Source: Fusobacterium varium (GTDB taxonomy: Bacteria > Fusobacteriota > Fusobacteriia > Fusobacteriales > Fusobacteriaceae). Taken from it: a DNA stretch of 64,000 nucleotides. Shown piece after piece: positions 12,060 to 56,461 of the stretch (position 1 is the first letter of the stretch; the number at the start of each line of letters is the position of its first letter). The position numbers and the translations under genes are program-made. The DNA is taken from contig LR134390.1 in the NCBI GenBank assembly GCA_900637705.1, positions 496,001 through 560,000 of the forward strand. The letters run 5' to 3'. A model generated the notes under the pieces. The model had not been told where the DNA came from. It searched no databases and was given only the letters and a program-made list of their open reading frames with translations.

Positions 12060-12215
12060 GGGGACTAATGTAAGACAAGCGCCAGAACTTTTAACAAAAG
12101 TTGACGAGGACTGAGATAATCGAAATTTCGGCGGGTTTCTCAGAGGTGGTTACAACCGTTACTAACAAAGCTATAGGGTAACCTATAGAACAAAGAGGTA
12201 ACTGTAACAAGTCTC
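12060..12215 (+). ncRNA. glmS ribozyme-riboswitch
   Basis: The leader of glmS contains the conserved core AAGCGCCAGAAC, GACGAGGACTGAGA, TTCGGCGGG and TCTCAGAGGTGGTTACAACCG. CTGAGA pairs with TCTCAG as expected for P2. In this family glucosamine-6-phosphate binds and promotes self-cleavage directly 5' of GCGCC, here between 12078 and 12079, which leads to mRNA decay when the amino sugar is plentiful. The position immediately before glmS confirms the call. The 3' limit is approximate because the P3-P4 domain is less conserved. Confidence 0.95.
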
Positions 12216-51553: not shown

Positions 51554-53092
51554 TTATTCAGTTACATATACATTTGTAAGATCTAAATATCCATTGTTTT
51601 TCATAATAAGATTATGAATATTTTTTCTCATTCCAAGATTTAGTTTTGGATAAAGAATAGTGTAGTGAGGAAGTTCTTCCTGCAATATCTCCTGAGCTTT
51701 TCCATAAAGCTCTTTTCTAATTTTAGGATCCATTGTTATTCTTGCTTTATCAAGAGTTTCATCTAAGTCTTTATTTATAAAAGCAGTCACATTCATAGAA
51801 CCTTTTATTTGTGAAGAATGGAAAAGAGGATACATAGTTTTATCGCAATCTCCATTGGCTGTATTCCAAGACATATAGAAAATAGGTTTTACTTCATTTT
51901 CGTTTTCAATCATTTTTATATAAGTTGCCCATTGAAAAACTTTAATTTCAGTATTAATTCCTATTCCTCTTAACTGTTCTTGAATAATAACGCAAGCATC
52001 AATTCTTGCAGAATCATCACTTACCCATAATTCAATATTGAAACCATTAGGGTATCCAGCTTCAGCTAAAAGTTCTTTTGCTTTAGCAGTATTTAAATCA
52101 TATTTTTTAGCATTGGGATTAAAATCTGTCATAGCAGGAGGAACTACAGAAGTTCCAGGTGTTGCAGAATCTCCATATATAGCTTGAGTAATAGCATTAT
52201 TATCTACAGCATAAGCTATAGCTTGTCTTACCCTCTTATCTTTCAGCAGCTCATTTTTAGTATCGAATCCAATAAACTGACTAGTAGGAGCTTCAACTTC
52301 TATATAATCTAAAGAGTTGTTGTTTTTAATAGATTTTAGGTCCATAACTCCCATATCTAAAGAGATGTCAGCTTCACCAGTTTCCAGCATAATCATTCTG
52401 CTGTTATTTTCAGTTATAAATTTGATAACTACTTCTTTTAGCTTTGAAATAGTTCCATAGTAATCATCAAATCTTTCTATAGTAAGTTTGTTTCCTATAT
52501 CCCATGATTTAAATTTGAATTGTCCAGTTCCTACAGGATTAGTAAGAAATACATCTTCTGAAGCTTCAACTAGTTTTTTATTCACTATTGAAGAATTTGT
52601 GATACTAAGTTGGTTTAAAAGACTTCCAAAAGGAGTATCTGTAGTTATTTTAATAGTATTTTCATCAATTACAGTTATCTCTTTTATAGGAGTGAAATTA
52701 TATGCACATTGAGGAAGGCTTCTAGCTCTATCCAGAGAAAATTTTACATCTTCAGCAGTCATTATATCTCCATTGTGAAATTTTACACCTTTTTTCAAGT
52801 GAAATACTGTGTTTAAAGGATCAATTGATTCCCAGCTTTCTGCCAATCCAGGAAGAAGATTAAGATCTTTATCCATAGTTATTAAAGTATCAAACATAAG
52901 CTGAATTATTTTATTAGATACTGAATCTGTACTTTTTTGTGGGTCAAGAGTTTTGATTTCAGATTTTTGAGCAATAACTAGAGTATCTTTTAATTTAGTT
53001 TCTACTGAAGTTTCAGATTTTATAGCTTTTGTTCCTCCTAGTAATAAAGCACAAGTAAGTAAAAAAATTACAGCCAATAGTTTCTTTTTCAT
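51554..53092 (-). CDS. ABC transporter peptide-binding protein (SBP family 5), solitary
   Basis: 512 residues from the ATG at 53092, which has GAGGGGG upstream; an earlier in-frame start at 53146 lies inside the attenuator hairpin. Signal peptide MKKKLLAVIFLLTCALLLGG lacks a clear lipobox, so the product is probably periplasmic. Family-5 motifs: LDPQKSTDSVSNKIIQLMFDTL, LAESWESIDPLNTVFHLKKGVKFHNGD and DKRVRQAIAYAVDN. It resembles dipeptide/oligopeptide-binding proteins. No permease or ATPase gene adjoins it, so it must supply a transporter encoded elsewhere. A Trp-rich leader frame and terminator precede it. Confidence 0.92.
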   Translation of the reverse strand: MKKKLLAVIFLLTCALLLGGTKAIKSETSVETKLKDTLVIAQKSEIKTLDPQKSTDSVSNKIIQLMFDTLITMDKDLNLLPGLAESWESIDPLNTVFHLKKGVKFHNGDIMTAEDVKFSLDRARSLPQCAYNFTPIKEITVIDENTIKITTDTPFGSLLNQLSITNSSIVNKKLVEASEDVFLTNPVGTGQFKFKSWDIGNKLTIERFDDYYGTISKLKEVVIKFITENNSRMIMLETGEADISLDMGVMDLKSIKNNNSLDYIEVEAPTSQFIGFDTKNELLKDKRVRQAIAYAVDNNAITQAIYGDSATPGTSVVPPAMTDFNPNAKKYDLNTAKAKELLAEAGYPNGFNIELWVSDDSARIDACVIIQEQLRGIGINTEIKVFQWATYIKMIENENEVKPIFYMSWNTANGDCDKTMYPLFHSSQIKGSMNVTAFINKDLDETLDKARITMDPKIRKELYGKAQEILQEELPHYTILYPKLNLGMRKNIHNLIMKNNGYLDLTNVYVTE

Positions 53093-53136: not shown

Positions 53137-53163
53137 AAAAAAGCAACCTGGTTAGATTGCTTT
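53137..53163 (-). terminator. leader-region terminator (attenuator) before the peptide-binding protein
   Basis: In transcript sense AAAGCAA pairs with TTGCTTT over CTAACCAG-type loop bases, followed by TTTTT and ATTC. It lies upstream of the coding start and downstream of the leader frame, the position of an attenuator. Part of its 5' arm and loop (AUCUAAC) is complementary to GUUAGAU in the leader frame. Confidence 0.75.
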
Positions 53164-53182
53164 AAAAACAAGTGATATTTTA

Positions 53183-53235
53183 TATATATCATGTGTGCTC
53201 CAAAAAACATGATATATAAATTATAATTTATATAT
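53183..53235 (-). promoter_or_regulatory. overlapping alternative hairpins in the leader
   Basis: One hairpin has an 11-base stem (53183-53193 with 53208-53218, core ATATCATG/CATGATAT) and a 14-base loop. A second, a 24-base perfect palindrome at 53212-53235, shares bases 53212-53218 with it, so the two exclude each other. Mutually exclusive stems after a leader frame are typical of attenuation control. Confidence 0.6.
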
Positions 53236-53254
53236 TCAAATATTTTAAAGGAGT

Positions 53255-53383
53255 TTACACAGAAGTATAAAAGTTATCAAAAGACGCAAGCTTATATCTA
53301 ACATTAAAAATTTCTGTATGCAGTTTTTCTGTGCAGCTCCACCACCAATATTGGAATACAGAGTTTAAGTTAGATGCAGTCAT
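53255..53383 (-). CDS. 42-residue leader peptide with three consecutive Trp codons
   Basis: ATG at 53383 with AAAAGGAGGT ending eight bases upstream, the best ribosome site in the neighbourhood, and TAA at 53255. Residues 11-17 are QYWWWSC, where the three TGG codons occupy 53347-53339. Ten of 42 residues are aromatic (3 Trp, 4 Phe, 3 Tyr). It lies about 30 bases from the predicted transcription start and is followed by alternative hairpins and a terminator, so its translation probably controls read-through into the peptide-binding gene in response to charged tRNA-Trp. A stand-alone function for the peptide is less likely but not excluded. Confidence 0.8.
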   Translation of the reverse strand: MTASNLNSVFQYWWWSCTEKLHTEIFNVRYKLASFDNFYTSV

Positions 53384-53423
53384 ATTGATAACCTCCTTTT
53401 TCATAGTTTTATTTCTTGTAATG

Positions 53424-53452
53424 AGTATATTCTAATTTTTTTTAAAAGTCAA
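53424..53452 (-). promoter_or_regulatory. promoter of the leader-peptide operon
   Basis: On the minus strand TTGACT (53452-53447), 17-base spacer, TATACT (53429-53424). The -35 box overlaps the pdxT stop codon. Predicted start near 53417 leaves about 33 bases before the leader ATG. Confidence 0.75.
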
Positions 53453-54026
53453 CTATTTTTTTGATTTTTTATAATATCTAAAAAATATTCATGAACAGAA
53501 GTGTCATTAGTAAGCTCTGGGTGGAAAGATACAGCTAGCATATTTTTTTCTCTAACAGCAGTTATATTTCCATTTACAGTTGCCAGTATTTCTACTCCTT
53601 CTTTTATATTTTCTACATATGGGGCTCGTATAAATACCATTTTAACTTTTTGTTGATACCTTTAAAATCTTCTTCTATTTCAAAACTTCCAAGTTGTCTG
53701 CCATAAGCATTTCTTTTCACTTCTATTCCCATAACTCCTAAATGTACAGTTTCACTGTTTGAAAGCTTCTCTGCAAGAAGTATCATACCAGAACAAGTTC
53801 CAAATACAGGAAGACCATTTTTTATTTTTTCTTTAAGAGGTTCAAGGATATTAAAATCTCTCAAAAGTTTTCCCATAGCAGTACTTTCACCTCCTGGAAG
53901 AATTATACCATCTATATCTTCCAGCTGTTCTTTGGTCTTTACTAAACAGTTATCTACCTTTAGAGAATCAAGGATATTTTTATGCTCTAAGAAAGCTCCT
54001 TGAAGAGCTAAAATACCTATTTTCAT
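53449..54026 (-). pseudogene. pdxT: pyridoxal 5'-phosphate synthase glutaminase subunit, one frameshift in this sequence
   Basis: Restoring one base in the run at 53647-53651 gives 192 residues, the normal PdxT length. Motifs: MKIGILALQGAFLEH, LPGGESTAMGKLLRDF, the nucleophile Cys in VFGTCSGMILLAE, and (after the lesion) FIRAPYV and the catalytic His/Glu in SFHPELT. It releases ammonia from glutamine for PdxS. The start at 54026 is three bases past the pdxS stop, with its ribosome site (GAGGTTGG) inside the pdxS end. Confidence 0.93.
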
Positions 54027-54028
54027 AA

Positions 54029-54904
54029 CTACCAACCTCTTTTAGCCATTTTTTCATCTTCTGTGAGAGAGTAAACATTAATTCCTACCATTGCTTCTCC
54101 TAAATCTTCAGATATTTCAGCAAGAATTTTTGGATTGTTATAGTTAGTAACAGCTTTCACTATAGCAGCAGCTCTTTTTGCAGGATCACCAGACTTGAAT
54201 ATTCCAGATCCAACAAAGACACCATCACACCCAAGCTGCATCATAAGAGCAGCATCAGCAGGAGTTGCAACTCCACCAGCAGCAAAGTTAACAACAGGAA
54301 GTTTTCCATTATCATGAACATATTTTACTAAGTCATAAGGAGCTTCTAATTCTTTTGCAATATGATAAAGTTCAGATTCAGGAGAAGATACAACTTTTCT
54401 GATATCTTCATTTAATGTTCTCATATGTTTAACAGCTTCTATAACATCTCCAGTTCCTGGTTCTCCCTTAGTTCTTATCATACTTGCTCCCTCAGCTATT
54501 CTTCTAAGAGCTTCACCTAAATTTCTTGAACCACATACAAATGGAACTTTGAATAATGTTTTGTCAACATGGAATCTATCATCTGCAGGAGTAAGAACTT
54601 CACTTTCATCTATGTAATCTATTTCAAGAGCTTCAAGTATTTGAGCTTCTACAAAATGTCCTATTCTTACTTTAGCCATTACTGGAATAGAAACAGCAGC
54701 TTGTATTTCTTTTATCATTTTAGGGTCTGACATTCTTGCTACTCCACCATTTTTTCTTATATCAGCAGGAACTCTTTCAAGAGCCATTACTGCACATGCA
54801 CCAGCCTCTTCTGCTATTTTCGCTTCAGCAGCTGTAGTTACGTCCATTATTACTCCACCTTTTAACATTTGAGCTAGGTTTTTATTCAAATCATATCTTG
54901 ACAT
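54029..54904 (-). CDS. pdxS: pyridoxal 5'-phosphate synthase subunit PdxS
   Basis: 291 residues, a TIM barrel. [38 protein letters not shown] at the N terminus, the active-site Lys in [13 protein letters not shown], the second Lys region GEAGT-like TKGEPGTGD and the phosphate site [31 protein letters not shown]. It combines ribose 5-phosphate, glyceraldehyde 3-phosphate and ammonia to make vitamin B6 de novo, in a dodecamer decorated by PdxT. Divergent from the PdxR-type regulator. Confidence 0.98.
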
Positions 54905-55073: not shown

Positions 55074-56461
55074 ATGGAAATAGAGTTATCTAGAGAGAAT
55101 GGAGAAAAAATATATCTTCAGCTTTATTCTAAACTAAAAGAAATGATAGAAAATGGAGAGATAAAAGGAAAAATATTTTCTATAAGAGAACTTGCTAAAA
55201 GTTTAAAAGTGAGTATTTCTACAGTAGTGAAAGCATATGAGCAATTGGAAAAAAATGATTATATATATCTTAGAGGTGGCAGTGGTGCATATGTAAAATA
55301 TAGTAGAGAAAAAAAGCTCTATTTGGAAGATCATATGGAAAATGAGATATTTAAATATGGTTATTTTAATTCTGAATATAGAATAGATTTTTCTACTGCA
55401 TCACCTAATGCTGATTTTTTTCCCATTGAAGAGTTAAAAAAAGCAATTAATTATATTTTAGACAGAGATGGAGGAAAGGCACTTCTTTATGAAAATCCTC
55501 AAGGATACATTGAACTTCGTAAAACTATAAAAAGAGAATTGAAAAATGAAGGGATAGATGTAGAAATAAAAGATATTCAAATAATGTCAGGAGCACAGCA
55601 AGGAATAGATATACTAAGCAAAACATTGATATATCCAGGAGATATTGTAGTTACAGAAGATCCAGCATATAAAGGAGCTATTGTAAGTTTTAAAAATAAT
55701 GGAGCAAAAGTAGAACGAATATCTATAAAAAAAGATGGACTTGATATAAAAGAACTTGAAAATATTCTTAAAAGAGATAAAATAAAATTTATATATACAG
55801 CAGCTACTTTTCATAATCCAACAGGAATATCAATATCAGAAAAAAAGAGAATTGAACTTTTAAAATTAGCAGAAAAGTATGATTTTTACATTGTAGAAGA
55901 TGACTGTAGCTCAGATATATTTTTTGATGATAAAAAATAAAAAGTATAAAAAGTTATGATAAAAATAAAAGAGTAATATATATAAAAAGTTATTCAAAAG
56001 TTTTTATGCCAGGGTTTAGATTAGGATTTATGATAGTTCCAGAAAAAATAGCAAATTCTGTATTAGCAGGGAAATATTCAAGTGATATATCTAATTCAGG
56101 GTTAAACCAAAGAGTTTTTCAATATTTTTTAGAAAATGGTATTTGGAATAGACATATAGAAAAATCTAGAAAAGAATTTCATAAGAAGCAAAAATATATG
56201 TATAGCAAGCTAAAGAAAATAGAGAATATAAAAATTAATAAGCCAAAAGGTGGTATGTGTTTTTGGATAGAACTGCCAAAAGAAATAACAGGAGAAGCTG
56301 TATATATGAAGCTTGCTAAAAGAGGTGTTGGAATTTTACCTGGAGTGGTTTTTTCAGAAAAATCATATAACTATATAAGGTTAAGTTTTGCACAATGTAA
56401 TGAAAAAGAGATAGATGAAGGTATAGAAATATTAGGAAAAGTAATTGATGAATTAAGATGA
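55074..56461 (+). pseudogene. pdxR: PdxR-like MocR regulator (GntR-aminotransferase fusion), one frameshift in this sequence
   Basis: One A added to the run 55932-55937 joins both frames into 462 residues. An N-terminal GntR winged helix (YLQLYSKLKEMIENGEIKGKIFSIRELAKSL, about 16-46; SISTVVKAYEQLEKNDYI) is fused to an aminotransferase class I domain with NPQGYIELRKTI, NPTGISISEKKR and, after the lesion, the PLP lysine motif SYSKVFMPGFRLGF. MocR/PdxR proteins bind PLP and activate pdxST when B6 is low. Position head-to-head with pdxS supports that role. The break falls between the Asp and Lys of the PLP site, so the unrepaired protein could not bind PLP. Confidence 0.92.

Follow-up and report, generated by a model that had tools for sequence, protein, structure and literature searches.

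A Trp-Codon Leader in Front of a Lone Binding-Protein Gene

Does a short reading frame with three consecutive Trp codons, lying between a promoter and an intrinsic terminator, adjust the expression of a lone substrate-binding protein gene of Fusobacterium varium to the Trp supply? The question came from a sequence-only reading of the window (the whole stretch of 64,000 nucleotides analyzed here), which had proposed a Trp attenuator at this place. Our analysis points to a ribosome-mediated transcription attenuator that would sense charged tRNA-Trp and control a Trp-acquisition gene, and we put the probability of this reading at about 0.85. The features of the locus are the following.

53452-53447 and 53429-53424, minus strand: promoter with -35 box TTGACT, a 17-base spacer and -10 box TATACT; TTGAC(A/T)-17-TATA(C/A)T in 11 of 11 homologous leaders
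53392-53396, minus strand: leader Shine-Dalgarno (SD) sequence GGAGG; GGAGGTTATCAA invariant in 11 leaders
53255-53383, minus strand: leader ORF of 42 codons, MTASNLNSVFQYWWWSCTEKLHTEIFNVRYKLASFDNFYTSV, with ATG at 53383 and stop codon TAA at 53257-53255
53339-53347, minus strand: proposed regulatory codons TGG TGG TGG; TGG TGG invariant in 11 leaders
53368-53376, minus strand: segment 1 (CATCTAAC), partner of segment 2; further pairs extend upward to about 53357
53326-53340, minus strand: 5' strand of helix P2, beginning within the last Trp codon; double change U-A/C-G
53288-53302, minus strand: segment 2 (GTTAGATATAAGCTT), the antiterminator strand; GTTAGA invariant in ten genus leaders
53273-53280, minus strand: 3' strand of helix P1, TTGATAAC, complement of the leader's own SD region
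53250-53265, minus strand: 3' strand of P2, overlapping the stop codon
53140-53163, minus strand: intrinsic terminator stem of 10 bp, T run to about 53135; two doubly changed pairs across relatives
53163-53151, minus strand: segment 3, the 5' arm of the terminator (AAAGCAATCTAAC), partner of segment 2
51554-53092, minus strand: putatively regulated gene, a lone SBP_bac_5 substrate-binding protein of 512 aa (PF00496, 6.7e-90)

The promoter (53452-53424), the 42-codon frame with its Trp codons between Tyr and Cys codons (TAT TGG TGG TGG AGC TGC), and the terminator (53163-53140) ahead of a family 5 binding-protein gene were found as the sequence-only reading had described them. The SD sequence had been placed 33 bases past the promoter, and the distance from the -10 box to GGAGG measured 27 bases. 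GGAGG and the next bases, TTATCAA, make up the 5' strand of P1. The locus contains a translated leader with promoter, SD sequence, start and stop codons, tandem Trp codons, and a terminator with a mutually exclusive antiterminator. The leader folded better than 200 shuffles (z = -3.8). Short SD-preceded frames with WWW were absent from 40 random first-order 64-kb sequences, and those with WW occurred at 0.025 per sequence; in the real 64-kb window, one SD-preceded leader combined a residue run with a terminator, and this was the WWW leader before SBP_bac_5.

The SBP gene forms a single-gene unit, with a convergent gene next downstream, and pdxS and pdxT lie upstream of the leader on the same strand. 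In the window, a frameshift near 53640 divides pdxT (53449-54035, minus strand), and it is one intact frame in three close relatives; the probable cause is an indel in the assembly, as further split genes occur in the same genome. One of them is the PdxR/MocR regulator gene (55074-56461, plus strand), with frames of 288 and 151 aa, which suggests indel errors or gene decay. A glmS ribozyme was also observed at 12067-12213 of the window, plus strand (RF00234, 91 bits).

Conservation and Targets of the Leader

Of the 12 genus genomes, 10 contained the leader in a DNA search, and one of the other two is 71% complete. In four genomes, the group of the window, the leader (93-100% identity) precedes SBP5, and in six others a diverged leader (66-73% identity) precedes a transporter of the sodium:neurotransmitter-symporter family (SNF/NSS). 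One further leader, outside the genus, was detected in G031 by sequence-model search (E 1.6e-10; 1.0e-15 with the rebuilt model), and there it lies before a lone PF04392 binding protein that is closest to TrpX (NF041285, 225.6 bits, the curated equivalog cut-off being 390). All 11 leaders share the promoter with 17-base spacing, GGAGGTTATCAA and TGG TGG(TGG). The distance from the last Trp codon to the stop is 27 codons in all ten genus leaders and 28 in G031; despite this fixed tail length, the number of codons ahead of the Trp run varies from 5 to 12. The comparison with relatives that the sequence-only reading had proposed as a check came out in its favor, with the WW(W) frame, promoter, SD sequence, antiterminator and terminator kept in these ten genomes and in the one of another genus.

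A pattern search covered 84,980 species genomes, a collection that may leave out close relatives of the window, and gave 38 matches; the only real leader among them was that of Fusobacterium mortiferum An814, and the others were without a Trp-run leader or chance-like. Model matches in other Fusobacteriota had E values of about 1e-4 and weaker, and the four strongest, when inspected (L056-L059), were no leaders. Across 98 genomes of the phylum, the exact SD pattern was confined to this genus, and no significant second copy of the Trp leader was found within its own genome. Two pattern-matching terminators in G000/G010 (3008470 and 3872792) lie behind tRNA genes and lack a leader.

The genes downstream of the Trp leader thus code for SBP5, a member of the NSS family of amino-acid symporters or a lone TrpX-family binding protein. 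That the SBP gene in the window stands alone, as had been stated, held; the leader is no isolated oddity, being also found on NSS and TrpX-family genes. The Trp-biosynthesis enzyme indole-3-glycerol-phosphate synthase (IGPS, PF00218) was absent in all 12 genus genomes and present in 14 of 14 controls. The organisms are probably Trp auxotrophs, and in the absence of IGPS, control of uptake rather than of synthesis makes sense. Together, the conserved leader, the transporter targets, one of them in a Trp-binding-protein family, and the lack of IGPS support the Trp-attenuator interpretation at the level of sequence, and SBP_bac_5 would be an importer of Trp, of Trp-containing peptides or of another Trp source.

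An NSS ortholog (78% identity) has been retained in three of the four genomes of the window's group, with no leader in front. The ribosome site of this leaderless gene (L174, L175 and L176) reads AAGGAGGTTTATCATG, close to the leader's AAGGAGGTTATCAATATG, and is possibly the scar of a lost leader.

RNA Pairing, Leader Peptide and Rival Explanations

Four conserved, mutually exclusive pairings were found: P1, which joins the SD region with TTGATAAC; P2, which joins the bases just past WWW with those at the stop; 1:2; and the antiterminator 2:3. Of the two mutually exclusive hairpins proposed earlier, the exclusivity stood, now as these pairings. The AU-rich spacer hairpins (about 53249-53170) did not: they are confined to the SBP group and were rejected as the switch. 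P2 and the terminator showed double base changes, and 98.1% of their cells paired, a share that fell to 51% or less when the strands were slid. For the antiterminator, 98% of cells were paired versus at most 48% when slid, and none of its pairs was doubly changed within the Trp set. Among 2000 position-matched shuffles, 0-42 did as well as P1, 0-7 as well as P2 and 6-46 as well as the antiterminator; P1 barely varies and so has no covariation support. Segment 1 depends on the leader type, being UCUAAC in long leaders and GAGCACAAUAUU in short ones, and each form pairs with segment 2.

The fixed distance from the Trp codons to the stop, and a tail motif, (S)-(I/F)-D-N, that recurs among the leaders, could also be expected of a TnaC-like system, in which free Trp causes the nascent leader peptide to arrest its ribosome and the gene is induced by abundant Trp. 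Nevertheless, differences in the tail were spread evenly over codon positions 1, 2 and 3 (11, 8, 7; 14, 11, 12; 8, 9, 9), amino-acid identity dropped to 6/26, and leader L008 carries a compensating pair of frameshifts in the tail, indicating no selection on the tail peptide itself. The D-N codons, which are conserved, form the P1 complement of the SD sequence. The tails end in V or M, with no conserved C-terminal peptide and without the Pro that TnaC has ahead of its stop, and the genes behind the leaders serve uptake and are preceded by an intrinsic terminator. From these sequence comparisons, the unconserved tail peptide favors RNA switching, and we regard an arrest peptide as improbable.

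With pdxST directly upstream on the same strand, the terminator might merely end read-through from these genes, the small ORF being non-regulatory. We give this slightly less credence still, because the same leader, promoter and terminator stand before NSS and TrpX-family genes with different upstream neighbors, and WW(W), the frame and the pairings are conserved across 10 genomes. Just as hard to sustain is the idea that Trp supply acts through the leader on translation or mRNA stability, with no transcription termination: the leader's own SD sequence is indeed hidden by P1, but conservation extends to a strong U-tailed terminator, which carries double base changes, and to the antiterminator that competes with it. 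The least probable controller is a T-box or another RNA that binds tRNA or a metabolite directly. Streptococcus suis trpX is under Trp T-boxes (PMC9382623); what is conserved here, however, is a translated frame that contains Trp codons, and in a search of the leader and its relatives against Rfam no family reached its gathering score, T-box, riboswitch and trp leader families included. At relaxed thresholds, the sole match was Phe_leader, below threshold at 24.3 versus 55 bits.

A Model for the Proposed Switch

For the ribosome-mediated attenuator, the order of events, the direction of control, the response to Trp and the substrate of the SBP are what we infer from this arrangement. The leader would be translated by a ribosome while RNA polymerase nears the terminator. 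With ample Trp-tRNA, the ribosome would clear the TGG run, P1 and 1:2 would form behind it, and P2 could form after its release; segment 2 (GUUAGAU...GCUU) would then be held, segment 3 left free, the terminator would fold and transcription would stop. With scarce Trp-tRNA, the ribosome would wait on TGG TGG TGG, covering the 5' strand of P2 and hindering 1:2, so that free segment 2 could pair with segment 3 before the 3' arm of the terminator is made, and transcription would proceed into the SBP gene. If no ribosome were loaded, the leader's own SD sequence would be hidden by P1. Segment 2 would thus be held by two systems, P1 and 1:2 behind the ribosome and P2 ahead of it, unless the ribosome is near the Trp codons.

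This scheme was evaluated with a masking model, in which the ribosome is represented by a masked footprint and the RNA behind it is assumed unable to pair with the RNA ahead. In the ten genus leaders, antiterminator pairing was usually 80-99% as the TGG codons entered the A site, remained high for a few codons, and was 0 once segment 2 was covered and at the stop. The rise occurred at the second Trp codon in two short leaders, pairing was already substantial a few codons earlier in the longest leaders, and in G031 the rise came one codon past the Trp run. When pairing around the ribosome was allowed, SBP-type leaders stayed near 0% antiterminator at the Trp codons, and the antiterminator step at these codons is therefore model-dependent.

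Sister Leaders with Other Codon Runs

The closest paralogs of the SBP have leaders of their own, with Ile and Phe/Tyr codons, and these, too, show that the Trp leader is no one-off oddity. These paralogs (50-55% identity) lie in one cluster, arranged as SBP5-M20-SBP5-M20 and SBP5-M20, behind leaders beginning MFLFNIIIFVICIIVLIL and MLRTNLEFRAFVYFYYFYYFF with matching terminators. At L177 (G000:C1:718500-729800), an Ile leader and a Phe/Tyr leader stand ahead of clustered SBP5 and M20 amidohydrolase genes; a split was seen in one SBP5 frame there, and the Phe/Tyr leader is one T shorter than in G009. In G001 and G005, SBP5 genes likewise follow Phe/Tyr leaders, and G001 has an Ile leader ahead of its SBP5-M20 cluster. 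LivJ-type branched-chain amino-acid binding proteins were found behind Ile leaders in at least eight genus genomes (L199-L206, L111), and ilvE, coding for the branched-chain aminotransferase, has an Ile/Val leader (beginning MIFIILSIIVVVYIV) and a terminator upstream in G003 and G004 (L195, L196, L219).

Between attenuators, segments 2 and 3 co-vary: GUUAGA:UCUAAC in Trp leaders, GUUAGG:CCUAAC in Ile leaders and AUUAGG:CCUAAU in the Ile leader of G001. The codon run fits the function where this is known, i.e., for LivJ-type proteins, IlvE and the TrpX-type protein, and this match supports WWW as a Trp signal on SBP5. We see an even chance that much of amino-acid acquisition in Fusobacterium is under leader-peptide attenuators of one plan, with GUUAG(A/G) against a terminator arm carrying UCUAAC or CCUAAC, and that re-use on a new gene alters nothing but the codon run (Trp, Ile, Ile/Val, Phe/Tyr). 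If so, the leader would label the substrate: among three SBP_bac_5 paralogs in a single genome, one importer would be linked to Trp, one to Ile and one to Phe/Tyr, and the Ile and Phe/Tyr importers would share operons with M20 amidohydrolases.

Relation to Known Systems and Meaning

In the E. coli trpL system, a translated leader carries tandem Trp codons, the RNA pairs as segments 1:2, 2:3 and 3:4, and the SD sequence of the leader can be sequestered. The Fusobacterium leader resembles it in the Trp codons, the three pairings, the intrinsic terminator and the sequestrable SD sequence. It differs in that it would control uptake genes, whereas trpL controls trpEDCBA; in its length of 42 codons and the position of its stop, which lies 27 codons beyond the Trp run and past segment 2; in the extra helix P2, from the last Trp codon to the stop; and in having no match to an Rfam trp leader family. 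TnaC is likewise a short Trp-containing leader, and the tnaAB operon behind it includes a Trp permease; there, an arrest peptide at the stop responds to free Trp, and the Fusobacterium leader peptide is not conserved.

In 2010, leader-peptide systems were regarded as known solely in Proteobacteria and Actinobacteria, and very few ABC transporters were known under attenuation (PMC2965389). Trp leaders of Corynebacterium and Streptomyces, cited as background in PMC4833913, are cases of leader-peptide attenuation outside Proteobacteria; they sit on biosynthesis genes and belong to a different phylum. Firmicutes attenuators of this kind include B. subtilis bmrCD, S. aureus and Listeria ilv, and hisS/hisZ (PMC4191407, PMC5794164, PMC5864092, PMC2965389), the leader-peptide cases having come after 2010 (PMC4191407, PMC5794164, PMC5864092). 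They share ribosome-mediated attenuation with the leader proposed here, and bmrCD likewise concerns a transporter; they respond to other signals or control biosynthesis genes, and no sign of homology to the Fusobacterium leader was seen. As in S. suis, a Trp auxotroph whose trpX is under T-box control (PMC9382623), low Trp would induce a TrpX-type binding protein, but a T-box RNA reads tRNA directly, with no leader peptide. The sequence-only reading knew of no described case in Fusobacteria, and we found no leader-peptide attenuator described in Fusobacterium in open-access full text. The mechanism class is already known; within that literature, its occurrence in this phylum, on uptake genes and repeatedly on unrelated transporters appears to be new, as does the P2/P1 stem layout.

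If the proposed reading holds, one attenuator has been re-used on three unrelated transporter families, and classical attenuation would extend to Fusobacteria and to uptake genes in probable Trp non-makers. Family 5 binding proteins are numerous and their substrates are rarely readable from sequence, and the leader codons would give a testable prediction for each. Trp is contested between gut fusobacteria, the host and neighboring organisms, so that the switch would bear on a nutrient relevant to the host.
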